Origin: Isoetes taiwanensis
Taxonomy: Eukaryota; Streptophyta; Lycopodiopsida; Isoetales; Isoetaceae
DNA: 64,000 nt
Direction: 5' to 3'
Assembly (NCBI GenBank): GCA_021234155.1
Contig: JAJEKV010000419.1
Span: 124,001-188,000 of the forward strand
Part shown: piece after piece, positions 4,882-37,787 of the stretch
Numbering within the stretch: position 1 is the stretch's first letter
Layout of the letters: each line of letters begins with the position of its first letter
The notes under the pieces: generated by a model
The model's input: the letters and a program-made list of their open reading frames with translations, nothing else
Databases searched by the model: none
What the model was told of the DNA's origin: nothing
Program-made: the position numbers and the translations under genes

Positions 4882-5078
4882 TTTTTGGATTCAATAGCTC
4901 TGGTTCTTGTATTTTCTGGCATTAATTTGGTTTTTCTTCTCGATCTTTCTCTCATTTCCTTAAACTTCCTTTAATCTCCTTAATTTTCCTTCTTTCTTCC
5001 CTGATTGTCTTCTTTATTTTACTTTCTCTATCGATCTTGCTATCTCTTTCCTCTGAGCTCTGTTTTTTCCCTTTTTCA

Positions 5079-7722
5079 ATGGCTAACTTTACCAAAAATC
5101 CTAAAAATTCAAATATTCCTAAAAACCTAAGTGCCAACTCCCTCATTCTTCTTCACAAGTTCATGCTTCTTCCTTCAAACCAAAGAGGCGATCTACTCAA
5201 TCAGTTAAGCTCTTTTCACTCTAATCCTTCCAATGTGCTAAAATTTGGGGACTTTGCTGATTTAAATTTCCTTTCAAAAGAAATGCAATACTTTCCCACA
5301 GATGTTCCTCACTGGGACAATCTTTCTAAGGATCCGAGAGTGCCCATTCCTTATGGTGATCCAAGGCCTATTCAGGAAATTCATTCAGATCAGGACCTCA
5401 CCCAAGAGTTCTATAACCTGCAGTACCTGACTCGGCCAAATCTCCAGCTCTTTAAAGGTATTCATCTGAACAGTTCTTCCATAGCTTCCAAGATCGAATC
5501 CTTGTTTTCAACTGTTGTTATTATTTGTATTGATAAAGTTGGAGTTAATATTCAACACCTATGGGATCACCTTCTTAGATTACACAAAGGAATTGTTATC
5601 AACTCCATCTATTGGCTAAATTATCCCTACCTTTTAATGGAATGTGGGAATAGCAGAACTGCAAACTTCATGCTCAAATTGGGTCACTCAACCTTTAATA
5701 CCTTTCAAATTTCATTTATAAAGTGGAGTCCCTCTCTGCCTATTAGTGAATTTGGAAAATCCTTTTTTGCCTCTGTGAGTATGAATGACATGTCCCCTAT
5801 CTATTGGAATGAGGATTGTTTCTCAAAATTTTTTAACTCCATTGGATCCTATATCTTCTCTGAATTCTCCCCCTACAAGCCACCTAAATGCTATATCCAG
5901 CTTGACATTTCCAAACCCATTCCTACTTCCATCCCCCTGATTGACTTCTTTGGCAAACCTATGAATCTTCATCTGAGATGGGTAGGATTACCAAATTTTT
6001 GCCAGAATTGCAATACTAGACATTTCTATCACTTAGCTTGCAGCACTAAAGTGGTCAAAGGAGATTCAGAGGACCAGGTTCAAGAGAGTTCACCCAAAGG
6101 GATATTAAAAACATTAACAAGTCTGACAAGTCTTCAGGACAAAGGCAGACCAATGATTCTCAGAGAAATTTATCTGGTGCACGAGACTCCATGAGTCAAC
6201 AAAATCAATGTCAGAAATACAGCAAAATCAAAGATAATTTTCAACAATGGATTCCATATGCAAAAGTTAATGGTAGCAAGAGAAGAATTCTCAAAAAAAG
6301 AGAATTTAAAGAGAAGCATTTGGAACATAAAGAAAACATGACCAACAGCTCAATATCTCAGGGCTTGACAGTTTTTCACCTTGCACCTTCAACAATCAAG
6401 GTCCTTAACAAGGGTGCATTTTTCAAGAACAATAGCAACAAAGATTTAGCTATTGGAAAAAATGATTTAGACAGTCAACCTCAGAAGGTAGAAGTGACCA
6501 GCATTGAGCATAACAAATTAATGCTCAAAGGAAAGGCCCCTATTCATCATCAGCAATATGATTTACATAAAACATTAAAGGGCATTATGCTGGAAGCTCA
6601 AAAAGCAGCATCAGAAAGGCATAAAGGGATAAACATTCTTGACAATCCTACAAAAAATTGCAAATCAACCTTAGGGATCAAGATTTTCTCTCCAGTCCCA
6701 AAAGGTAAAGATGGCTCAAAGGTTAAAGAAGAGTCATTAATTATGGAAAACAAAGAAGTTGGTACAGATATTGCAGATAATGCAGAATCCCAAAGCAAGA
6801 TACAGTGCTCAAACAGTTTTGGAATTCTAGCTCAGTTAAACAATGACTTCTGTGCAGACAGTGTTGAGTCATTGACCCCTTTCAATACATTGGATTCCAC
6901 TTTGCCTACTTGTACACCGACCTTGAATCTTGATTCTTCCCCTTTTTCTCCATTAATAGACCTAACAGACACCCATGTATATCCTGCTAATCCTTTACAA
7001 CCTGAAAACTCCTGTTACAATGGTTCAATCTCCAGCCATATAGCTCAGCAGCTTGTAGAATTGCATGTGGAAATTGATGGACAAAGCATTCAAAATAGAA
7101 ATTTAGATCATCTGGCAGCAATAGATGACAGTGACACTTCAATGCAGAATAATGGGAATATACATAAAAAAGCTTAGGCTACTGGATCAAAAAATGGGAA
7201 ACAATGGAACAGAGTTAGAGTTAGGACAGGAAAATAATATGGCAAAATTTCTAGATACAGAAGGCAATTGTATCAAAGCACAGGATGTACCTTCAAGAAA
7301 CACAAATGAGGAGTTGGCAATTTCCAGGCAAGATCTAATCCCTCTTGATAATAATTTTAGTATCTACTGGTAAAAATTATGTTACAAGCCTAGAGCAAAG
7401 CCTTTGTTGTGAATCAAAATTTTGGAGTTGTTCTCACCAAAAAGACCAGGTAACTTCTGACACTGAGAACTCTGACAAAGAAAATGAGAATGATAATTGT
7501 CTCCAAATTAATGCTGATAATGAATCTTGGGGAGAATATACCTATCTATCATGTTCTTTATCTTCCAATCCCAAGACAAAAAGGGGGAGAAATAAAGCTA
7601 AGTCTAAAGTTAAGCATTCAAATAGAATTCTTAACATATTAGAAACCCCTGCCAACAACAGCAGGAAAAAAGTGAAAGAGAATTTAAAGGAATTGATCTC
7701 TTTTCGCCTTTTCTTCTATTGA
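5079..7722 (+). pseudogene. LINE ORF1 protein (DUF4283/zinc-knuckle type), frameshifted
   Basis: The start chosen is the ATG at 5079 (MANFTKNPKN); an upstream in-frame TTG is less likely. The first 370 residues form one open frame with a knuckle-like CQNCNTRHFYHLAC, a degenerate CX2C-H-C where the canonical His spacing is off by one. The frame closes at 6194 with TGA overlapping the ATG at 6191 (ATGA). Reading then continues in other frames through 7177, 7373 and 7722 as a Lys/Ser/Asn-rich tail with a basic KRGRNKAKSK patch. ORF1 of plant L1 elements binds the element RNA (known of the family). At least three frame changes make this a pseudogene. Confidence 0.8.
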
Positions 7723-9237
7723 GTTTTAGCCTATGAAGATCCTTTCCTGGAATTTAAGAGGGATCAAAGGTCCTTTAAAGAGAAGAAGAGCTATCTCTCA
7801 GATTAGAAAATATAATGATGATATAATTCTTTTGCAAGAATTGAGGCTTCCTAATTTTGAATGCTCAAATCTTGCTGATTGGATTGGCCCTGGCCAGTCT
7901 TCTATTTGGATTGAAGCTACAAACCCTCGGGTGGCCTTTGCATGATTTGGAAAAATCTAAATCACTCTCTTTTCTATAATAGCCCTTGTAAAAGGTGGGA
8001 GGCAGTTATCTTTAATTATTTAAACTCTCCTTTTGGAGTTGTCAATATTTATGCCCCCACCATTTCCAGGGATCAGATCATCCATCTCAATCCCTTCAGA
8101 CTAAACATTCTCTGTATGTTAAGAGACAAGGTAATATCCCTTTTAAGCTTAATTGCTCGATCTTAAATAATGAGAAGTTCTATGCTGATTTTATTGATTT
8201 TTATGACAATCTCCCAAGAGTCCAAGCTAATAACTCCATGAAGCCTTTTATTCTAATATAAAGGCTTCCAAATCTTGGATCAAGCAATGGTCCAAAAATC
8301 TTCATGAGCAGAGGAGAGAGAATAAAAGTAAGCTTCTGTTAGATATGAAAGATGTTAGATATAAATTTTGGGAAGTTATCAAATCTGATCTTACTCATTT
8401 GGTTAAAGGTTTTTGGCATACAAATCATCTGCACCCTGCCTTGTCTTCTGGATTTTTATTTCCCTCATTCCTAAAACTGATAACCTCGAGACTTTCAGTG
8501 ATTAAAGGCCTATATCCTTGACCAACACGACTTACAAGCTCTGTGCCAAAATCATAGCAAACAGAATTAAAGGTTATCTTCAAAAAAATATCAGTTTGCA
8601 TCAATCTGCTTTCTTGCCAAACAGATATATACTTGACAATTATATTGCTGCTATGGAGAGCATGCATTGGGCTAGAATCTCCAATCAAAATTGTGTTCTT
8701 CTGAAGCTAGATTTCTCTAAGGCCTTTGACACCGTAAGATGAGACTTCTTAATTCTTGCTCTTCAAAAATTGGCTTTCCTTCAAAATTAATTGACTTGAT
8801 CATGGGTCGTAACTTAAGATCTCAGTCTTCGATTATAAAACACGATTGCAAATTAAACGGGAGTGTTGCATCACTCCCGTTTCAAAGATTCCCTTAAAAA
8901 AAACACCAGGATTTACAAAATGATCATTTTCAAAAGAAGTTGGGGATTTCAAGTGAAACAAAATATTTTATCGTGCATTTTGGGCTCTTTTGAAGTGATG
9001 ATCTTGCATTTGTAGAAAAGAGCACTTGGAAATGGCAAAATTTCAGACATTAATACACCAGAAATATTACTATGAATTCGAGGACGTCAAAAAAACGCAA
9101 AAAATAAATAAAAAAAATTTATTAATTTCTTTCAGTACATCAAATATGGCATAAATTTATAGCCAGTAGTAAATAATTTAGAAAAAACTAACTCAGAGGT
9201 CTAAATCGAAGTCCTCAGTGTGTGGTTTGCTCTTTCG

Positions 9238-10335
9238 TCACCTTTTTTCTATCTCTACGCTTTGCTCCTTTGGCCTTGCCTTATCTTTGTTGGTGTCAAT
9301 AGTCTCTTCAGGAATAGTAGCTAGAGCTACTTCTTTGAGCTCTGCAAAGGTAGCTTCATCTTCCAGAGAGCTTGTGAAAGGAGGTTGTATCTCAGAAGAT
9401 GTCATTTTGACAAAATTTGATGATGATTTGGCTCCCAACTCTTGATTTTCATCTGGTAGAGTTGGTAGAGCAGACAACCGCATCTTAATAAAGTCTACTG
9501 AGACTCTCTATCAATGTCAACAAAGAACACAATTACGGCCCTTTTAAGTGCACATGCTATTGTTGTACGCAGCCGAGAGAAAGCATCTAGGACCCAATCT
9601 CACGGACGTGAAAACATATCCGAATATGGTTAATTAACCGTGGCTTCCGGTAATGATTCACAATTTTGCCTTTGTGCACTTGGGTCCCGGAGCTTCGTAA
9701 TACTACCGGGAACTCGGGACATTAGAAAAAGTTTTGGCGGTGTCATTGTGTTAAAGTGCTCCATGGTACGCTTCCCGTCGAAACTCCAGTAAGCTACATG
9801 GAGATACTCAACCTTGCTCAGCAGCCTCGGTCCTCCACCATGGTAGTTAATATTAGTTTTGTACCTGCAAGATCGTATTCCAGAATAGTAAGTACGTATT
9901 CCAGAATAGGACATGACGAGTTACAACTGCAACAATGACTCACAACTGCACTCGAGATTTGAAGACTCACCAGACCATATTTTCATAACCGGCTTGCACA
10001 GGAGAACCGAAGTGGTTCTTGAAAGTAGCTTCCACAAGTCCGAATTGCATGCTGGAGTGGAACACAACAAGACGCCAGTGTTTTGCTGTGGTAACCTGCT
10101 TAATTCCATCGACGAAAGCATTGAATTCTGAGTGTTTGAATGGCTGATCGTCGTAGCGGCTATCCTTTAGCTTAAACCCATACGGCAAGTCTGCTATGAC
10201 CAAAGTAAAATCTTGTGGCTTTATACTTCCAGCCAGCTTAGTGCAGTCCCCATGAACGATAGAATAATAGTTATTTTGATCAAACATGGAAAACCTCTCG
10301 TAATCGGACGGCTCAACATCAACAATACGCCTATC
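9238..10335 (-). pseudogene. DNA N4-cytosine/N6-adenine methyltransferase-like, broken
   Basis: Exon 10335-9971 encodes a GDCTKLAG start and motif IV-like VIADLPYGF (a DPPY-type catalytic loop with D-L-P-Y). It ends at a GTGAGT donor. The intron is 9970-9865 (CTTGCAG acceptor) and the next exon starts at 9864 with a phase that completes the Trp in NMVWYKTN. Downstream is a motif I-like segment, DWVLDAFS..TTIACAL then VDIDRES, then FIKMRLSALP. Motif IV before motif I is the beta-class order known from bacterial-type amino-methyltransferases. The glycines expected in FxGxG read as R-L-R. In-frame stops (TAA near 9633, TGA before DWVLD) and a shift near 9495 show inactivation. The C-terminal 80 residues are acidic and Lys-rich. 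Confidence 0.72.
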
Positions 10336-10688
10336 CTAGAGTCCTCTCTTCTCTGACAGTCCTTACCAGGTGCATAAAACCTTCTGGTAGGTCCTTGTTC
10401 TTCTTCTTGCTTTGTTAGTAAAAGATGTTAGGCAGGCAACACAAAAGAAAAACATTAAAAACATGAAAAAGACGTACCCAGCCCTCAAAATTTGGAGCGT
10501 ATTGGGTAATACGCTCGTCGGAAGTTGCTATGGGATAGAGCTCTTTACATCGTCCCCTACCGTCCACGCTCAACCGCTCCATTAAACATGTTTGGCACGT
10601 AATAACATTTTTCCGCTGGAAGTCAAGAACAATTAAACAAAGGTGAGTATTGTTTTACGAAAAAGAAAAGCAATAAGAAAAAGCCCCG

Positions 10689-10876
10689 ATGTATTCGAAT
10701 ACCCTTTGTCTTACAATCCAAAAGCAAAAGTGTATTCCGGAATACACTTTCGCTTTACGTTCAAAGCAAAAGTGTATTCCGGAATACACTTTCGCTTTAT
10801 TTGTAAGCCAAAGTGTATTCGAATACATATTGGACTATTTACGAAGCCAAAGTGTATTGGGAATACACCTTGGCTT
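10689..10876. repeat. palindrome array 1 (five GTATTC..GAATAC units)
   Basis: Two units contain the full perfect 24-bp palindrome AAAGTGTATTCC/GGAATACACTTT. The others are shortened to TTCGAA or altered to TTGGGAA centres. Spacing is about 30-45 bases with CGCTTT or GCCAAA linkers. The array lies upstream (on the - strand) of the methyltransferase exons. It is probably a cluster of protein-binding sites; its role is inferred only from symmetry and repetition. Confidence 0.85.
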
Positions 10877-11908
10877 CCCAAAAACATTTCTTGCTCTGGA
10901 AGGAAAATTTAAATGAAAGTTACGTGGTTCTTACTTGTGCGGTTCCTTGGACATTTCTTGAGCGTAAACTCTTTATCAACGACCTTACTGCGGTAGCCTT
11001 TCTAGTATGTATACGTATCGTAAAGCCCCCGCATTTCTCTCCGCATCGTGATCGTCATTTCCTTCTTTGGACGCCGAACCTTTCTTCTTTTTTCGAGACC
11101 TTCCCTTTACTTTTTAAATTCACCACGCCGAACATGGTAAAAATTTCATTTTGTAGGTCCCATATCCGCACGGTAATGACAAGGTTAATTTCTCGTGATG
11201 GTTATTCCGTATCACGAAAAGAAACTTACCCCGCCGTCTCTAAAGGCTAGTTGAAACCGGTTGTCATGCGGTATGAGAGGCGCCATTTATTAGCTTCATC
11301 GTACTTTAAGGCAAAGACTCCCTACAAGACGCTTCCTTCAGTTCTAACGAGTATGCGGTTTCTTCAAATCTTCTCCATATTTTTCCCAAAAATCATGTAC
11401 CCCCGTGCATGAATCGGATCTTGTCTAATTTTAAGCTCATCTTTAATTTATACTTTCGTTGTCGGCATTATGGGTGTTGGCAACGATTTTAGCTTCCTCG
11501 TCGGTGAGACCACAAAGAAGTCGCAAGACAAGACGAGAGGTACACCGGTTTTTCTTTTTCTTTATACGTTTTGCCTTCTTGCCTTGAAGCTATGATTTCC
11601 TCCCGTGGCGTAGTGTGTGTATGTTTTCTGCGTTTTCCTCGTCATATTCGGGGGTTTTGCATTGCTCCACATCAACAAGGACAACTATTGGGGCCACATG
11701 AGCATTTGGATTGCTCCTAATTTCTGTCCTTCAAGTTCCTTAAGTGGTCGGCATAAATTTTTCGAACTTGAAGGCGGCCTTTTCGCCCTGACTCATTCTT
11801 TGGGTGCAGACCTCATGCTAGTCATAGGAAGATACATTACCCCTTGTACAAATTTTTCTCTGTTAATAACCTCCATTCTTTCAGAGGTCTTATCAACCTT
11901 CTTTTCCT

Positions 11909-12430
11909 TTATTGCTTTTCCTTTTCCCTTTTGTTTTTGAGCTTTCCTCGGGGACTTCGTGATTTCAATTTCTTTGTACTTTTCGCTTCTTTGGTTCTCA
12001 GAGTAGCTATCGTTGCCCTTGGTTTGCTAAGTTTCTTTGGCCGCCAGGGGTTCTTCCTCGCCCCGTTCTCTCGAACCTCCATCCGATGACCTCCGGGAAG
12101 AACTAGCGGAAGGTGGTGATTGTGACCTTTCTCGCCGGACTCCGGCGGGGAAAGTCCTCGCCAGGCTTTGGAACAAACTCGCCTAATACATGAACACAGG
12201 CTTCGTTTTGTCCGGTAGTGTGAAAAGAATTTGTACAGTGCCGGTGGTTGCACACTGACAATTTTAAAGAATGCGATGTCCACAACAATGAAGCCTTGGG
12301 AGGTCTTGAAGGATAGCCTCCCCACCTGACCTCCTTGTCCGGCAACCTCGGAGACATCTTTTATTGTCCCAAGGTTAACAAACTCGGAGTCGGCGTACCT
12401 TTTGTTACCAGCACTTTTACAGACGTACAA
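11909..12430 (-). pseudogene. possible upstream exon(s) of the methyltransferase gene
   Basis: The 173-codon open frame begins with an ordered-looking part (YADSEFVNLGTIKDVSEV, then VVDIAFFKIVSVQPP) and ends in a strongly basic tail (RKNPWRPKKLSKPR, KSTKKLKSRSPRGK) resembling a nuclear-localising linker. It lies on the same strand and upstream of the methyltransferase exons inside the transposon. A further coding-like patch ending KYDEANKWRLSYRM lies near 11240-11310 on the same strand. Joining these into one gene is inference. No family was recognised, though the first part could be a small reader-type domain. Confidence 0.35.
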
Positions 12431-12848
12431 AAACGTCAGTGTGCTGTATTTTCCATCTGCACCCCTGCGTCACGAACCATTGCGTTTGAAAGTTCTCGTA
12501 AATTGGGGCTCGTGTCTGTCACGGTGCTTTCGAGGGTGTGGACGCTTAGGCTTCTGAGATTTCTTTGATGCCCTCTTGCTTCCTTCTTCCCTGCCACAGA
12601 AACGTTTAAAACAACCATGTCAAGACAGAAATTCAAACGAAATTTGTATTCCAGAATAACATTTACTAATCTTGTGCCCTGAAGGCCAGAAAAAGACAGG
12701 AAAACAAGCTAAAATATTGTCACTCTAAGTCAATTTCTTGTGCCTTAATTGGACTCGAAAGAGTAATTTCTAACCTAAAAAGTTGTCTGTTGCAGCTAAA
12801 ACGTGTGTTATTTTAGTGCAAAAAAGCAAGCGTTCTAAAAAATACAAG

Positions 12849-13168
12849 CAAAATGTATTCCGGAATACACTTTGCTTACTGGCGAAGTGCAAAGTGTATT
12901 CCAAAATACACTTTGCCCAACTGGCGACGTGCAAAGTGTATTCCGGAATACACTTTGCCCATCATGCGAAGTGCAAAGTGTATTCCGGAATACACTTTGC
13001 CCTTCCGGCGTAGAGTAAAGTGTGTATTCCGAATCACCGAAGGCAAAAGTGTATTCGAATACACTTTGCACTCGCCAAATGAGCAAAGTGTATTCCAGAA
13101 TACACTATATTCCAGAATACACTTTGCTCTTCGCCAGATGGGCAAAGTGTATTCTGGAATACACTTTG
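12849..13168. repeat. palindrome array 2 (about nine units)
   Basis: Units of AAAGTGTATTCC/GGAATACACTTT are spaced about 40 bases apart with GCCCAxxTGGCGA-like linkers. Three keep the CCGG centre. Others have CCAGAA or CTGGAA, as expected from CpG deamination, or a TTCGAA centre. Isolated weaker sites also occur near 9885-9910, 12646, 13409 and 13468. The array lies between the divergently arranged methyltransferase-side and transposase-side genes, where a shared promoter would be expected. Confidence 0.85.
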
Positions 13169-13544
13169 GCCTACAGAAGCAAATCAGAAAACAAAAGAAA
13201 GACGTACTATGTACTTTACATGCTTACCTGTCCATTGTTTTCGCTATGTAACCGGAATCTGACAAATGTATATTGATCTAAGGCGCTCGATGGGCGACTA
13301 AATCTCTCGGAAGCGAATACGCAAGGTATTTCGAATTTTCCTTTTAAAGGTAGGCCTTGTCGGTTGTGTTTTCTATGTGATGCGAACGCCTTGTCCAAAC
13401 ACTCTGGATAAGTGTATTCTGGAATAGCATTCTTGCACACACACAACAAATGCTGCACACAAAATACTATTCCAGAATAGCATTTGTATTCTCGAATATC
13501 ATTAGTCCAATCGACTTGTGAGTTAGTAACAAGCCCACAATTTT

Positions 13545-15310
13545 TTGCAGTTGTTTGACATGGTTAACCGCTTCGTGAACAAACTTCCACCACCATTTGT
13601 TTGCCCAAGTACCTCTACTTCAGATGGAACACAAGACGGAGATACTTCTTCAACACCTACCTCGACAAGGTCTTTGTTGCTTCTCGAAGACACTCCGAGT
13701 CCAGTAACTAGTAGACTGCCACCACCTTTCCAACCCTCTCCAAGTCCAGTAGGAAACCGGCTGCCACCACCTTTCCAACCCTCACCTGTTGCACATAGCA
13801 ATCTTCCACCACCATTTGTACCATCCCCCGACACTACAATGGCTCGACCTCAAAGAAATTTTTTGAACGGACTACCTCCGTCGTTTGTTGTTTCTCCATC
13901 TTCACTTACACATGCCAGAATACAAAGACGTCAAGAGGCTGCGAGATTCTCCATCGTTTCTCCCACCACGATTTCACTACAAATGAAGACGACCCTGCAG
14001 CATCTACTCCTCTTCACACAAACGTGGTGACACATGGGTTTGCAGAATTTCAGTCTGCTATAAGAGAGATGTTTGATCGAACTCCCTGTGAAGACGCTAC
14101 AACAACTTTCACGGCACGCCATATCTTGGCCCATCTCCTTCATTCAACACCGCACCTCGCCTTTATCAGGGTATAGCTTCACGTGGTTTTATTCTCCTCT
14201 ACAAGCACACCACTAAGGGCAGAGGAGGTCACCCCCAGAGTAGAACTCTCTTCAGAAGATGAAGACACCAACGAAATGCAACGAGATTACACGTTCTCTA
14301 GCCAGTCCACCAAGAAATTCAAGGTGGATTATGGTGTAAGAGCATGCTCCTCTCAGAAGAAGAAGAAACCTTATGGGCCGAGCATAAAATGAGAAGACTT
14401 TTAAGAAGTAAATGCTGCTCATTGGGTTGCATCAACAAATTTAACATGTCTAAATTACGAGCAATTAGAGACAACTACTGGTTCAATGACATTGGCTGAC
14501 CGGAATGCCTACTTGGCCTATCATGTAAGGCCGGACCGCAACACCTTCTTGCACTACATTAACCGGCCAAGAAGTTTGCAGAAATGCTTTATGGTTGTCC
14601 ACCGTTTAGGGTCCACCAGAATGTCTAGAATACACAAAAGACTGGACAAAAATCCAGCAATTGATGATCATTGTGGACCAAGAAGAGTTGTAACCATGCA
14701 TGCCCTTGCTGCTGTGTCATGGATGGAGAAATATTTTAGAGAAACATGTGAGAAGCTGCCTAACAGCAACATGTATCATTTAACTGATGCCTCAAGGTAA
14801 TATCACAGAAATTACTAAGGGTATGCTAATTGCTCTTCCAACTGAGGAGGATGACAAAGGTCGACCTTTCTGGATAGCAAAAGTGCTTGACACAGTCAAG
14901 GAGGAAGGCTTAGTCACTAAACTCAAGATTCATTGGCTTGCAACACACTCAGAAAATGCTTTTGAAGGTAGATATGAGTTAGAAATGAGAAGCCAAGGAA
15001 AAGGAAGAAAGTCCAAGAAGGTGGGTTGTAGGGATGAGTGACTATATTGTGCTTTGATTTGAAATTGAAATCTGACAATCGTCTACGCCAGAGGACTATC
15101 AATTTGCTTAAAAAAACTTGTAATTACGAAGAAGAGGATGAAGAAGGTGGTGGCAATGCTACACCATCTGTTGATAGTGATGAGGAAGATAACTCAAGCA
15201 CTTCCTCTAGTGACAGTGAAAGAAGTGAAGGTGATGAGGATGGCATAAATGAATATGATGATGTCCTAGATCCCTCTCTCATCACTCCTCACACTTTTGT
15301 ACATAACTGA
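13545..15310 (+). pseudogene. transposase-like protein with LPPPF repeats, internally deleted
   Basis: The N-terminal part has five spaced copies of a LPPPF/LPPSF motif (NKLPPPFVCPS, SRLPPPFQPSPS, NRLPPPF.., SNLPPPF.., NGLPPSF..). An acidic/basic linker (VELSSEDEDTNE, KKFKVDYG) follows. Next comes a cysteine block CCSLGC..LRAIRDNYWFN (about 14409-14490), a frameshift near 14490, and RNAYLAYHV..VVTMHALAAVSWMEKYF..LPNSNMYHL. After about 14795 it jumps to PFWIAKVLD..KLKIHWLATHSE, a small chromatin-reader-like C-terminal domain, and an acidic Ser-rich tail. The layout resembles a widespread eukaryotic DDE-type transposase family as I remember it. The catalytic core expected between the last two blocks is absent, so this copy cannot be autonomous. 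Confidence 0.5.
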
Positions 15311-16460
15311 GTCTTAGAAAAAGACTGTAAATTTTGCATGTGAATATGAAGATTCTATCTTCAAATTTTGAGAATACTACAGTTTCAGTTACGGACTAAC
15401 TTCAATTTTTTGTTAAATATTTTATCCTCTGAAATTAGGGTTTCTCACGTAAAATATACTTCAAGAACATTCTGTTTGCTAAGAAAAATGACACTTTAAA
15501 AAAGTCAATTCTTTCGTTGCACAAAAAAATTAGTCACTTTTGGGGGGGTCAAAATAGAATTTCATGCATCTTTTTTTTTTTAACCTCGTTTTACCCCCTT
15601 TTTGTAAAAAAAAAAGGTCGATGATTTGCTCCCGTTTAATACGCAATCTTGTTATAATCAATGGCTCTCCTAGCAGATTTTTCTCCCTGAACAAAGGAGT
15701 AAGACAGGGTTGTCCTTTAGCCCTCTACCTTTTTATTATTGTAGCTGAAATGCTTACAAGAGTTATTCATCATCACCAGCAGGTTGGAAATATTAAAGGC
15801 TTAAGGCTTCCTGATAATATGAGTCAATTAACTTTAATGCAATATGCTGATGACTCTTTCAGTTTTTTGCTGAATGAGAAAAAAAACATTGAGTTCTTTC
15901 TAGATATTATCAAGGGTTTTAGTGTTGCCTCTGGGATTTACCTTAATCAGCAAAAATGTATCATCCTAGGTGAATCTGCTCAGTCTGATATCCTTGGCAT
16001 TAGATGGTTTGATTTCAGTCATTCAACATCACTTCTTGGTATGCCTCTTTCTCTGGACACAAGTGTTAAGAATCTTTGGTCTCCAATTGTCTCTAAGATC
16101 AGGAGAAAGCTCAATAATTATGGAAGTTGTCTCTCTTTGGCTGGAAGAACTATCATTGCAACTTCAGTGCTCTCTAGCTCCCATATTTATTTCTCGTCTG
16201 CTCTTTTGGCCCCTAAATGTATTTATCAGCAAATTGAGAGAATTGTTAGGAATTATATTTGGGGAAAAAACTATATTGTTAACTGGAACTATGTTACCCA
16301 AAGAAAAGACAAAGGGGGACTAGGTTGTAAGAATTTACTTTTGCAAGGTTATGCTCTTGCAGGTAAATATGTCTGGAAATCTCTGTTTAATCATGGCAGT
16401 CCTGCTACTTCCTTCATCAAATATTGGCTTTAAAACAGTAAATTCGAGGGGCACCCTTCT

Positions 16461-18619: not shown

Positions 18620-19565
18620 AATTATGATTAGTTAGAGTAAATTGCTTGTTGACTTCAAAATTGTTGACTTACGCTTCACCAAACATATTGGTCAATGAAA
18701 GTCAAACATGTAACAAAGGGGGTGTGATTCATACTTGTTGACTTGAAAATTGTTGTCTTACACAATATGCCTTAACATAATGCATAGAATAGCATAGGTC
18801 AAAATTGTTGACTTACGCTTTACCAAATGTTTGGGGGTGATTCACACTTGTTGACTTGAAAATTGTTGACTCACGCTTTTTGAAACATGTTGGTCAATGA
18901 AAGTAAAACTTTAGCTTAGGGGTGATTCACACTTGTTGACTTGAAATTTGTTGTCTTACACAATATGCCTTAACATAATGCATAGAATAGCATAGGTCAA
19001 AATTGATGACTTACATTTTACCAAATGCTTGGGGGTGATTCACACTTGTTGACTTGAAAATTGTTGACTCACGCTTTACGAAACATGTTAGTCAATGAAA
19101 GTAAAACTTTAGCTTAGGGGTGATTCATACTTGTTGACTTGAAAATTGTTGACTTACGCTTTACCAAAGATGTTGGTCAATAAAAGTCAAACATTTGCTT
19201 GGGGGTGATTCACACTTCTTGACTTGAAAGTTGTTGACTTACACAATATGCCTTAACATAATGCATAGAATAGGATAGGTCAAAATTGTTGACACGTGCT
19301 TTACCAAATGCTTGGGGGTGATTCACAATTGTTGACTTGAACTTGAAAATTGTTGACTCACGCTTTACCAAACATGTTGGTCAATGAAAGTAAAACTTTA
19401 GTTTACGGGTGATTCATACTTGTTGACTTACACAATATGCCTTAACGTAATGCATAGAATAGCATAGGTCAAAATTGCATAGGTACACAATATGCCTTAA
19501 CATAATCCATTCATTTGGCATTTGTTGATTTGGCAATTGTTGATTTGGTAACATGTGGAACATTG
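18620..19565. repeat. TTGAC-rich complex tandem repeat
   Basis: Degenerate units of roughly 90 and 180 bases alternate two modules. One is GTGATTCACACTTGTTGACT followed by GAAAATTGTTGACT. The other is ACAATATGCCTTAACATAAT followed by GCATAGAATAGCATAGGTC. TTGACT/TTGACTT, the core of the plant W-box, recurs dozens of times. This may simply reflect the satellite unit and does not prove regulation. Confidence 0.85.
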
Positions 19566-28166: not shown

Positions 28167-28261
28167 TATGTCTTCAATCAAACCCTAATTTAGATAGTTG
28201 AGATCGTCTGATTGCATTCGAAGGCCGAGATTTATCGCACAACTTCCCACCACCGAGATTG

Positions 28262-29905
28262 GCCATGCTCTGATCTCTTAAGAGGAAAGGGAAAATGGCA
28301 GAGAAAAGGGCAAAGTGAGAGGCAAAAAGGCATGGGTAAAAGGGAAAGACGGAGAAGGGAAAAGGAAAGGGAAAAGAGCACGAAAAAGGGAAAGAAAAAG
28401 AAAGGGAGAAAAAGGAAGGAAAAAAGGACACTATGAAAAGGAAAAGGGGGAAAGGGTGAGGACAGAATAAGGGAAAAGAAAAGGGGAAGGGAGGAAAAGG
28501 AAGAAAAATAGGGCAACGAGAAAAAGGTGAAGACGGAAATGGTGACGGAAGGGAAAAAGGGGAAGATAAGAATGATGGAGAGAAGGAAAAAAGGGCATGG
28601 AAAAATAGAAAGGGAAGGAAAAAGGAAAAAGGAGGCAAAAAAGGGAAAAGGGCATGAGGAAAAGGGAGAGGGAAATCAGAGAAGAAGGAGAAAGTGGCAC
28701 GAGAAGAGGAAAAGGGTGAGGAAAGGAAAAAAAGAAAGGGAAAAAGAGATGGAAAAAGGGAAAAGCGAAAAGCAAAAAGAGAATAGAAAACATGGAATAG
28801 GAAAAGAGGAAAAGGGAAAAGGGGAAGAGGGTGGGAAAAGGAGGAAAAAGGGCATGTGAAAAAGGTGGAAAAATGGAATGGAAAAGGGTGTGGGAAAATG
28901 GAAAGGAAATGAGAGAAGGAAAAAAAAAGGGTGGAAAGGAAAGAGGAAAAGGGCATGGAAAAAGAGAAAAGGATGAAAAAAAGAAGGAAAAGGAAAAAGG
29001 AAATGGGAGGCGAAAGGGGAAAGGGGAAAGAAAAAAGAACACGAGGAATAAGGAGGGAAATGGAAAAAGAGGAAGGAAAAAGGGCAAGAAAAAAAAACTA
29101 GAAGAGGGAAAGGGTGAGGAAAGGGTAAAAAATAAAGGGAAAAAGAGCATAGGAAAGGGAAAAGAAAAAAAAAGAAAAAGGGGAATAGGGACGGGAAAAG
29201 GGGAAGAGGGTAGGGAAAGGCGGAAGAAAAGGCAAGTAAAAAAAGTGGAAAAAAAGGAATGGAAAAATACATGGGAAAAAGGGAAAAGGAAAAGGGAAAG
29301 GGAAAGGGAAAGGGAAATGGAAAGGGAAAGGAAAGGGAAAGGGAAAGGAAAGAGAAAAGGAAGGGGGGGGAAGGAAAGAGGAAAAGTGCACCTGAAAAAA
29401 GGGAAAGGGTGGGAAAAATGATGAAAAAAAGAAGGAAAGGGAAAAAGAAAAAGGGAGGCGGAAAGGGGGGAAGGAAAGGAAAAAAGGCATGAGAAAAAAA
29501 GAAGAAGAAAATGGGAAAAAAGAGACATGAGATAAAGAAGAAGAGGGTGAGGAGAGGAAGAAAAACATCAAAAAAAGGTGGGGAAAAGGGAATGCAAAAA
29601 GGACATGAGAAAAGGGAAGGGAAAAGAGAAAAGCAAAAGGAATGGGAAAAGGAAAGGGAAAAAAGAGCATGAGAAAAATGGGAAGGGTGGAGAAAGGTGA
29701 AAAGGGAAGGAAAAAAGCCGTCAAAAAAGGGAAAGGGAAAGGGAAAAATGAGAAGGAGAAAAGGAAGGAAAAGAGGAGGGAGAAGAGGGTAAAAAAGAAA
29801 AGAAAAAAAAAGAGAGAGAAGGAGAAAAGTAAATGTGCAGGAAAAATAAGAAAAGGGAAAAAAGAAAGTGTATAAGAAAATGAGGAAAAAAGGATATGCA
29901 GGATA
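28262..29905. repeat. about 1.65-kb purine-rich (GGGAAA/GGAAAA) tract
   Basis: The + strand is almost entirely A and G in degenerate GGGAAAAG/GGAAAGG runs, with occasional GCATG or TGTG interruptions spaced about every 40-60 bases. Some parts are nearly perfect (GGGAAA)n, for example 29279-29360. Long open frames on either strand here (Lys/Glu/Gly-rich or Phe/Ser/Pro-rich) are composition artefacts. The tract lies just inside the right end of the inverted-repeat-bounded element. Confidence 0.95.
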
Positions 29906-30613
29906 GAGCAAAGGGAAGGTTATCAAATGCACACCTCTTATAGCCTAGATATGATGGACTTGGTTAATGAGTCTAAGCTGAATAGGTTTCCATCCACAAA
30001 TGTTCCCAACATTTGCCCAGCAACGCTGGGCACCATTACTAGTGTTCATATTACAGTTTTTTCAACTAACACATGCAACTGAAATGCTTCAGGCTAGTGG
30101 ATTCATAACTTCACATGCGCATCAGCATGTTCTGCAGATGATAATGATATAAGTACCAATCTATGCGAATGTTCTCAACTTTCTTTACGTCGACTGTTCT
30201 ATTTCTTGCACCATCATTGCTGACATTACATGATTCACAAGTCTCTCGAACCAGCTTGTAAAACAATTGAAATTGCAAACATGGGTCAAGAATGGTTCCA
30301 CAAGTAATTACAGGCTATATGCAACTGTTCAATTTTTTCCAGCTAAGGGTGATCAATCTTCATGATCAATCTTTGTCAACTGAAACCAGACAATATATCT
30401 TCAACAACTTAAGTCAACATATGTTGAAGTGCTTCTATAGAGTTTTATGCCCTATCAGAGGTATATGCACGGATTTCAAAAATCGTTTTCTTCATAAACT
30501 TCACATAAGCATCGGGACTGTCTTGCAGACATAGTTAAAAATTTCAGCAATTGCCTCTGCTAGAACAGTATTACAATGTATTAAAATTTCCTAGCAAATA
30601 GAAGAAATCTTAC

Positions 30614-31399: not shown

Positions 31400-37787
<6,388 letters not shown>

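Follow-up and report, generated by a model that had tools for sequence, protein, structure and literature searches.

The window analysed here is a stretch of 64,000 nucleotides from Isoetes taiwanensis (contig JAJEKV010000419.1, positions 124001-188000), and the genome searched for copies of its features comprises 1,658,258,908 bases in 1110 contigs. At 8839-15653 the window holds a DNA transposon that carries a + strand transposase gene and, divergent from it, a - strand gene whose product ends in a predicted bacterial-type DNA methyltransferase. The element is an internally deleted copy of a family of about 8.3 kb, recognised by 25-bp terminal inverted repeats (TIRs), a 4-bp target-site duplication (TSD) and 11 further complete copies. 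Its left TIR (AACACGATTGCAAATTAAACGGGAG, 8839-8863, + strand) is identical at 22 of 25 positions to the right TIR (AACAAGATTGCGTATTAAACGGGAG, 15629-15653, - strand), and the inverted ends gave 2 matches in the window against a mean of 0.00 in 100 shuffles. The two TSD copies, ATAA, lie at 8835-8838 and 15654-15657, and when the flanks are joined without one of them, the reverse transcriptase frame of a long interspersed nuclear element (LINE) is restored (...RSQSSIIINGSPSRFFSLNKGVRQGCPL...). A first-pass annotation of this DNA had proposed a mobile unit from the inverted ends and the restored LINE frame, and both stand, although comparison with other copies extends the ends 2 bp outward (AACA...TGTT) from the 8841-15651 that it gave.

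The methyltransferase domain is encoded on the - strand by two exons, of which one (9971-10393) contains motif IV (DLPYGF, 10191-10174) and the other, the last exon of the gene (9193-9864), contains motif I (9587-9561) and the C-terminal tail. Between them lies a GT-AG intron (9865-9970) with two palindromes inside; this and the other introns were inferred from splice signals and reading frame. In L009, the least damaged copy of the family, the two exons are separated by an in-phase GT-AG intron and read ...IADLPYGF...DWVLDAFSGSGTTIACALKKGRNCVAVDID. When joined, they match PF01555 (E=1.8e-19, 71 bits against a cut-off of 26.7), and the nearest solved structure is CcrM (6pbd, E=1.1e-12), followed by MboIIA and RsrI. 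Motif IV precedes motif I (DAFSGSGTT), as in the beta class, and the L009 exons thus bear out the earlier call of a - strand methyltransferase of that class. The first-pass annotation would have given up this call had searches with hidden Markov models returned no methyltransferase, and the window copy alone comes near to that outcome, since its own damaged reading matched PF01170 (E=0.022 and 0.08) and not PF01555, whereas L009 passes clearly. When the window reading was compared with proteins, 3 of 223 candidates had a precomputed PF01555 assignment, matching at 52-58% identity across 42-47% of the query with a lowest E of 4.9e-34; these three carry FSGSGTT at motif I, where the window copy has FSRLRTT and 29 of 40 copies have FSGSGTT. 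By domain match and motif order, the C-terminal part of the gene product is a bacterial-type, beta-class amino-methyltransferase.

Further exons lie upstream on the same strand. One, cysteine-containing, belongs to the same gene (10478-10615; TCQTC...RCKELYPIATSDERI) and is identical at 107 of 139 positions between L009 and the diverged copy L064. At 11231-12590 are one or more exons whose frame is broken in the window assembly and which in L019 form an open reading frame (ORF) of 446 amino acids with a tentative ParB-like motif, GGNHSFKARRQL. The ParB assignment of this ORF is likewise tentative. None of 5855 candidate proteins matched it at E<=0.1, no PDB entry did so at E<=10, and the six phage records found reached E=2 at best. 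PF02195 was absent at E<=1 from the element proteins searched, and there were weak ParB-like matches to phrog_723 (E=0.37) and phrog_30771 (E=0.0032).

A search with a profile of the methyltransferase family, in which 7992 candidates were scored, identified 62 proteins. Six of them combine ParBc with PF01555 (P0044, P0049, P0052, P0054, P0060 and P0061), and one has a eukaryotic source label: P0005 (Gb_14868), which is 42% identical over 27% of the query and contains IADIPHG and DRFSGLGTTIACSLKKGRNC. We take the Gb_ prefix to denote Ginkgo biloba, and this likely Ginkgo relative suggests that the methyltransferase family is wider in land plants. The P0005 gene model appears to be mis-spliced. 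Phage methyltransferases are distant, with 51 records found and, in the best 25 of the 51, 17 longer matches that are 21-25% identical; a scan of IMG/VR for the methyltransferase gave two stretches that fit a pattern and no relative. From the relatives found, the domain is therefore bacterial in kind, with at least one near relative from a eukaryote.

Copies of the element and the pairing of its genes

The transposase gene occupies 13560-15310 on the + strand. In L009, its protein is spread over two ORFs of 517 and 552 amino acids and matches PF25273/DUF7869 (E=3.2e-51; score 174.1 bits, cut-off 26), which gives substance to the earlier description of this gene as transposase-like. The domain lies in a stretch of about 1.5 kb that is missing from the window copy after 14788 and is kept in all 11 full copies; the window copy thus represents a repeat family in a form shortened by deletion.

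Copy numbers rest on first-look candidates, which came to 1125 for the methyltransferase DNA, 2167 for the C-terminal transposase DNA and 3059 for the methyltransferase protein P0003, with 40, 40 and 150 of them scored, respectively. The 40 methyltransferase places are the window itself plus 39 more, which are 87-93% identical and include one partial match. The transposase search returned 41 rows, which correspond to 40 places once a second piece at C970 is left out, and all 150 places scored with P0003 match. When 20 copies were fetched with their flanks, the fetched stretch contained both ends in 11, the left end only in eight and the right end only in one. The two-ended copies are 8071-8437 bp long, and each of the 11 is flanked by a perfect 4-bp TSD (GTTT, ATAT, ACAG, AGCA, AAAG, TAAG, ATGA, GTGT, GATA, CAGC and CTAA). 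A genome search with the methyltransferase DNA, akin to the one that the first-pass annotation had proposed, yielded at least 39 other methyltransferase places and, among the copies fetched, 11 complete elements, whose matching ends and TSDs confirm a DNA transposon. Left flanks are identical over 12 bp in L012 and L022, which may be one insertion assembled twice, and differ at 1 of 12 positions between L018 and L020. Outside CAG/CTG sites, the lowest nearest-neighbour divergence among 39 methyltransferase copies is 0.4%, and some copies are therefore young.

Judged by its ends, TSDs and domain content, the family is a cut-and-paste DNA transposon with a DUF7869 transposase. The CACTA/EnSpm elements, which have a 3-bp TSD and ends starting with CACTA, were considered and rejected because the TSD here is 4 bp; the ends, AACACG/AACAGG, differ as well.

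The methyltransferase generally accompanies the transposase. Among the matches listed, from which partner places were chosen by eye, at least 14 of the 40 transposase places (window included) have a methyltransferase match 5.2-7.1 kb away in the correct orientation. Six more transposase places were fetched as 1.3-kb pieces, and four of these contain the methyltransferase. With 14 places checked by listing and six by fetched piece, 20 of the 40 are covered, and a methyltransferase beside the transposase is usual, universality being beyond this evidence. Consistent absence of the methyltransferase from other copies, which would have undone the proposal of the first-pass annotation, is not what these places display. 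By their gene content, the copies examined show the two genes to be co-mobile.

Selection on the methyltransferase and damage in single copies

For the analysis of selection on the methyltransferase, codons in the neighbourhood of CAG/CTG sites were masked because of an artefact at those sites (discussed below), so that 238 of 364 codons remained; the partial copy L057 was excluded, which left a tree of 39 copies. In a parsimony count, as distinct from a codon model, the internal branches carry 37 nonsynonymous and 63 synonymous changes and no stops (omega 0.23; codon positions 16/20/64), compared with 166 nonsynonymous and 82 synonymous changes and seven stops on the terminal branches (omega 0.78; codon positions 81/82/92). 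Internal branches differ from terminal ones (Fisher p=3.8e-7) and from neutrality (binomial p=4.6e-13). For the other ORFs, 21 sequences were offered per test. Omega was 0.22 on internal and 0.85 on terminal branches for the DUF7869 ORF (15 sequences used, three being without a match and three under the coverage filter), and 0.26 and 0.63 for the upstream ORF (20 used). The internal-branch counts therefore indicate that transposing lineages conserved the methyltransferase with roughly the same strictness as the core of the transposase, and they show purifying selection on the methyltransferase as the family spread.

Single copies look quite different. The frame is undamaged over the 364 codons in 3 of 40 copies (L009, L010 and L027), and both motifs are unchanged as well in L009 only, as might be expected if the methyltransferase were a captured gene that hitch-hikes neutrally and decays. 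This explanation is very improbable, and a decayed passenger gene was ruled out as a candidate, given an internal-branch omega of 0.23 without stops and the strength of the departure from neutrality. Subfamilies 64-84% identical to P0003 also retain the methyltransferase, and by hand count some 100 of the 150 matches that were scored are stop-free. Part of the damage in single copies may instead be assembly error.

The distribution of changes in the window copy bears on this question. Relative to the majority of 39 copies, the window copy is altered at 20 of 48 CAG/CTG sites, compared with 2 of 67 CWC/GWG, 4 of 29 GWC, 25 of 171 WWW and 20 of 180 CWT/AWG-type sites (Fisher p=1.7e-7 against CWC/GWG and 7.8e-7 against the four classes pooled). 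At least 25% of the 48 sites are altered in 21 of 39 copies, which host methylation of the element at CHG would predict, the number reaching 35 of 48 in L040 and falling to one in L010 and none in L009. In 12 copies picked for their abundance of such changes, 42 of 226 alterations are of the deamination type (CAA, TAG, TTG and CTA), by a hand sum over the alteration types listed, and the remainder are other substitutions and indels. The changes in the window copy, located by eye, fall mostly between the HFNT and VDID segments, with a few elsewhere. In that block, both the TGA and the change in motif I coincide with CAG/CTG sites; the TAA results from frame changes in the same block. FSRLRTT and the stops of the window copy were accordingly rejected as a sign of decay, the damage being concentrated at CAG/CTG sites.

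The published Isoetes taiwanensis assembly was built from nanopore v9.4.1 reads and polished with racon and pilon (PMC8566536). The damage in the window is probably due to nanopore base-calling error at 5-methylcytosine (5mC) in CHG context, which in a repeat we infer to be beyond the reach of short-read polishing. If the artefact reading of the CAG/CTG changes is right, the element is CHG-methylated by its host. In this assembly, gene calls within repeats may not be reliable.

Several other features of the window were noted. The - strand upstream exons at 11000-12300 are disrupted by many small changes relative to L009 and L019, seemingly of the CAG/CTG kind that is found in the methyltransferase. 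The transposon lies inside the reverse transcriptase of a LINE-like element (4926-8834 and 15658 to about 17700) that has ORF1 and an ORF2 with reverse transcriptase and whose own frame is interrupted at several points. The stretch 18645-19477 consists of tandem repeats (periods of about 85, 198 and 283 bp), and about 1.8 kb of low-complexity DNA with several open frames on both strands occupies 28174-29944. An ORF of 615 amino acids at 35834-37681 reads, to the eye, like a second reverse transcriptase, and its frame starts within a 146-bp (CT)n run at 35858-36003.

Palindrome arrays and a possible DNA-marking role

The non-coding DNA of the element is rich in a short palindrome, TGTATTCCGGAATACA, which in all 12 copies of the sample forms arrays within inferred introns and in the DNA that separates the genes. 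The pattern TATTC-(0-2 nt)-GAATA occurs 11-19 times per copy in these 12, where base composition would predict about 0.05, and the spacing is often about 42 bp. In the window, array A (10690-10860; TATTC-NN-GAATA at about 42-bp spacing) lies in a predicted intron of the methyltransferase gene, array B (12848-13170) in a predicted upstream intron of that gene, and further pattern matches (13408-13505) close to where the two divergent genes begin. The centre of the palindrome is most commonly CG (80 of 188), followed by CA (55) and TG (24). L064, from a diverged subfamily, has an array in the same intron with outer bases AATGTG in place of AAAGTG, and its identity to L009 is 73/96 in palindromes and 147/360 in intron spacers, compared with 115/159, 107/139 and 232/341 in exons, a comparison that rests on a single diverged copy and on repeats that are easier to align than unique DNA. 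Among the 1.3-kb pieces L058-L063, the palindrome is present in three of the six (at 5, 1 and 2 sites) and absent from the other three. As a whole, the palindromes fit a dimer-binding site that selection has maintained. L058 also contains, at 674-733, a perfect 60-bp palindrome around a TATTCCGGAATA core, far longer than the usual unit.

One possibility, which we put forward tentatively and as falling a little short of an even chance, is that the element carries a self-targeted DNA-marking module, in which the methyltransferase marks the element's own regulatory DNA with an anti-silencing or self-marking function. The methyltransferase protein would be recruited to the palindrome arrays through its N-terminal part, which is possibly ParB-like, or through a partner; it would then write a methyl group on the regulatory DNA of the element, and the mark would keep promoters or ends usable despite host 5mC silencing. 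The selected, bacterial-type methyltransferase suggests that the element chemically marks DNA in a way that aids its own spread. Motif IV of such enzymes has D for N6-adenine and S for N4-cytosine, with either specificity having evolved repeatedly in the domain (PMC8885841), and since motif IV of the element begins with D, N6-methyladenine (6mA) would be likelier than N4-methylcytosine (4mC). In other eukaryotes, 6mA is tied to permissive chromatin (PMC12695648). That this is the first known plant transposon with its own selected N6-adenine (or N4-cytosine) methyltransferase, which puts a host-foreign mark on its own palindromes and stays active despite 5mC silencing, is possible but doubtful.

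An alternative role for the methyltransferase is in transposition, where it would mark the ends or the excised DNA, for replication timing or for discrimination between element and host, and have no part in silencing. Dam control of bacterial IS10 and Tn5 is a precedent, selection on the methyltransferase equals that on the DUF7869 ORF in strength, and the two genes are together in most copies examined. The palindrome arrays, however, are located within inferred introns and in the intergenic DNA and not beside the ends, and we consider this alternative unlikely, if well worth keeping in view. The methyltransferase might also act on host or rival DNA, changing the host epigenome or silencing competing elements. 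A benefit in trans would be selectable too, and N4CMT of bdelloid rotifers, an acquired PF01555 enzyme, is able to mark transposons and acts on them for its host (PMC8885841). Such a role is nevertheless distinctly improbable in view of the many copies (3059 first-look candidates, with all 150 scored ones matching) in place of a single domesticated gene, and of the dense self-repeats, which point to self-targeting.

Several results weigh against self-targeted DNA marking by the methyltransferase. The N-terminal transposase ORF has an omega of 0.55 on internal and 0.69 on terminal branches (p=0.69; 20 used), and the selection test is therefore uneven along the element. Two of the six transposase places fetched, each as one 1.3-kb piece, have no methyltransferase in that piece. 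The transposase, instead of the methyltransferase, may be the palindrome-binding protein. Comparison of the 446-amino-acid upstream ORF with ParB gave an hhalign probability of 0.2, against 0.1 for a reversed control. If the CHG reading of the damage is right, many copies are still methylated by the host and anti-silencing would therefore be incomplete. Finally, motif IV is DLPY in 32 of 39 readable copies (and in L058 and L064), something else in seven and DPPY in none, so that of the intact FxGxG and DPPY motifs that the first-pass annotation had proposed to look for, the former is found as FSGSGTT and the latter is replaced.

The departure from DPPY, one form of the catalytic motif (D/N/S)PP(Y/F) of the beta class, would be explained if the protein no longer methylated and were retained because it binds DNA or serves as a structural partner. 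We give this only a slim chance. The S-adenosylmethionine-binding FSGSGTT is kept in the 29 of 40 copies and in P0001-P0003, and the bacterial ParB-methyltransferases P0044 and P0049 have DVPY, which implies that position 2 of motif IV tolerates change. Of the 62 family-profile proteins, 3 have DVPY according to a simple text match, a procedure that came up without any motif for 19 of them.

Whether 6mA and 4mC are real in land plants is disputed, and how transposons defend themselves against silencing is a live question. The element offers a candidate writer of 6mA or 4mC together with a predicted location of the mark, in its own palindrome arrays. If the self-marking reading is true, a selfish element, possibly in thousands of copies, would have an epigenetic system of its own and would give the genome of a land plant a bacterial base mark.

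Comparison with known systems

The second protein of the element invites comparison with VANC, which is encoded by the VANDAL transposons, Mutator-like elements (MULEs) of Arabidopsis. The VANC homology domain is DUF1985, and a Pfam search found no DUF1985 at E<=1 in five proteins of the element, whose second protein is no VANC. VANDAL and the element also differ in transposase, TSD length and ends. They are alike in being plant DNA transposons with a second, non-transposase protein, and in having arrays of short motifs in their own introns and upstream non-coding DNA that vary between relatives (PMC5735166). In VANDAL21, the VANC21 motifs are tandemly repeated both in introns and in upstream regions, and the targets of VANC lose DNA methylation (PMC5735166). 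VANC, however, causes loss of 5mC and is not a methyltransferase, and its motif, YAGTATTAY, is not palindromic; moreover, motif binding has been demonstrated for VANC, whereas here it is predicted from sequence (PMC5735166). By analogy, the second gene of the element may work like VANC.

Methyltransferases beside transposases are known from the algal-virus DNA transposons Mariner-2_PGv and Mariner-1_OLpv, which differ from the element in being virus-borne, with a Mariner transposase, an endonuclease, and Methyltransf_26 and C5 methyltransferases (PMC3627910). The Sola superfamily resembles the element in its 4-bp TSD and short TIRs (Sola2) and in having gained an extra gene (Fanzor), as these elements are described (PMC3627910). 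Bdelloid rotifer N4CMT is likewise a permuted PF01555 amino-methyltransferase of bacterial origin that was acquired by a eukaryote and is linked to transposons, but it has been domesticated as a host gene, contains a chromodomain and has SPPY, whereas the gene described here belongs to a mobile, multi-copy element and has DLPY (PMC8885841). In bacteria and phages, fusions of a ParB-CTPase fold with an N6_N4 methyltransferase have ParB N-terminal to a beta-class methyltransferase, the order suggested for the element (PMC12704722). The element differs from these fusions in that identity is 28-50% over 14-62% of the query and profile comparison does not support ParB homology of its ORF.

One review on how plant transposons capture genes names VANC, and a term search of it gave no occurrence of the word methyltransferase (PMC13317346); the titles and abstract openings listed from the open-licence literature mention no PF01555 enzyme carried by a plant DNA transposon. 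Transposon-borne methyltransferases (PMC3627910), anti-silencing (PMC5735166), acquired PF01555 enzymes (PMC8885841) and ParB fusions (PMC12704722) are each in print separately, and the combination, a PF01555 methyltransferase under selection in a multi-copy plant element, was absent from those titles and abstract openings.

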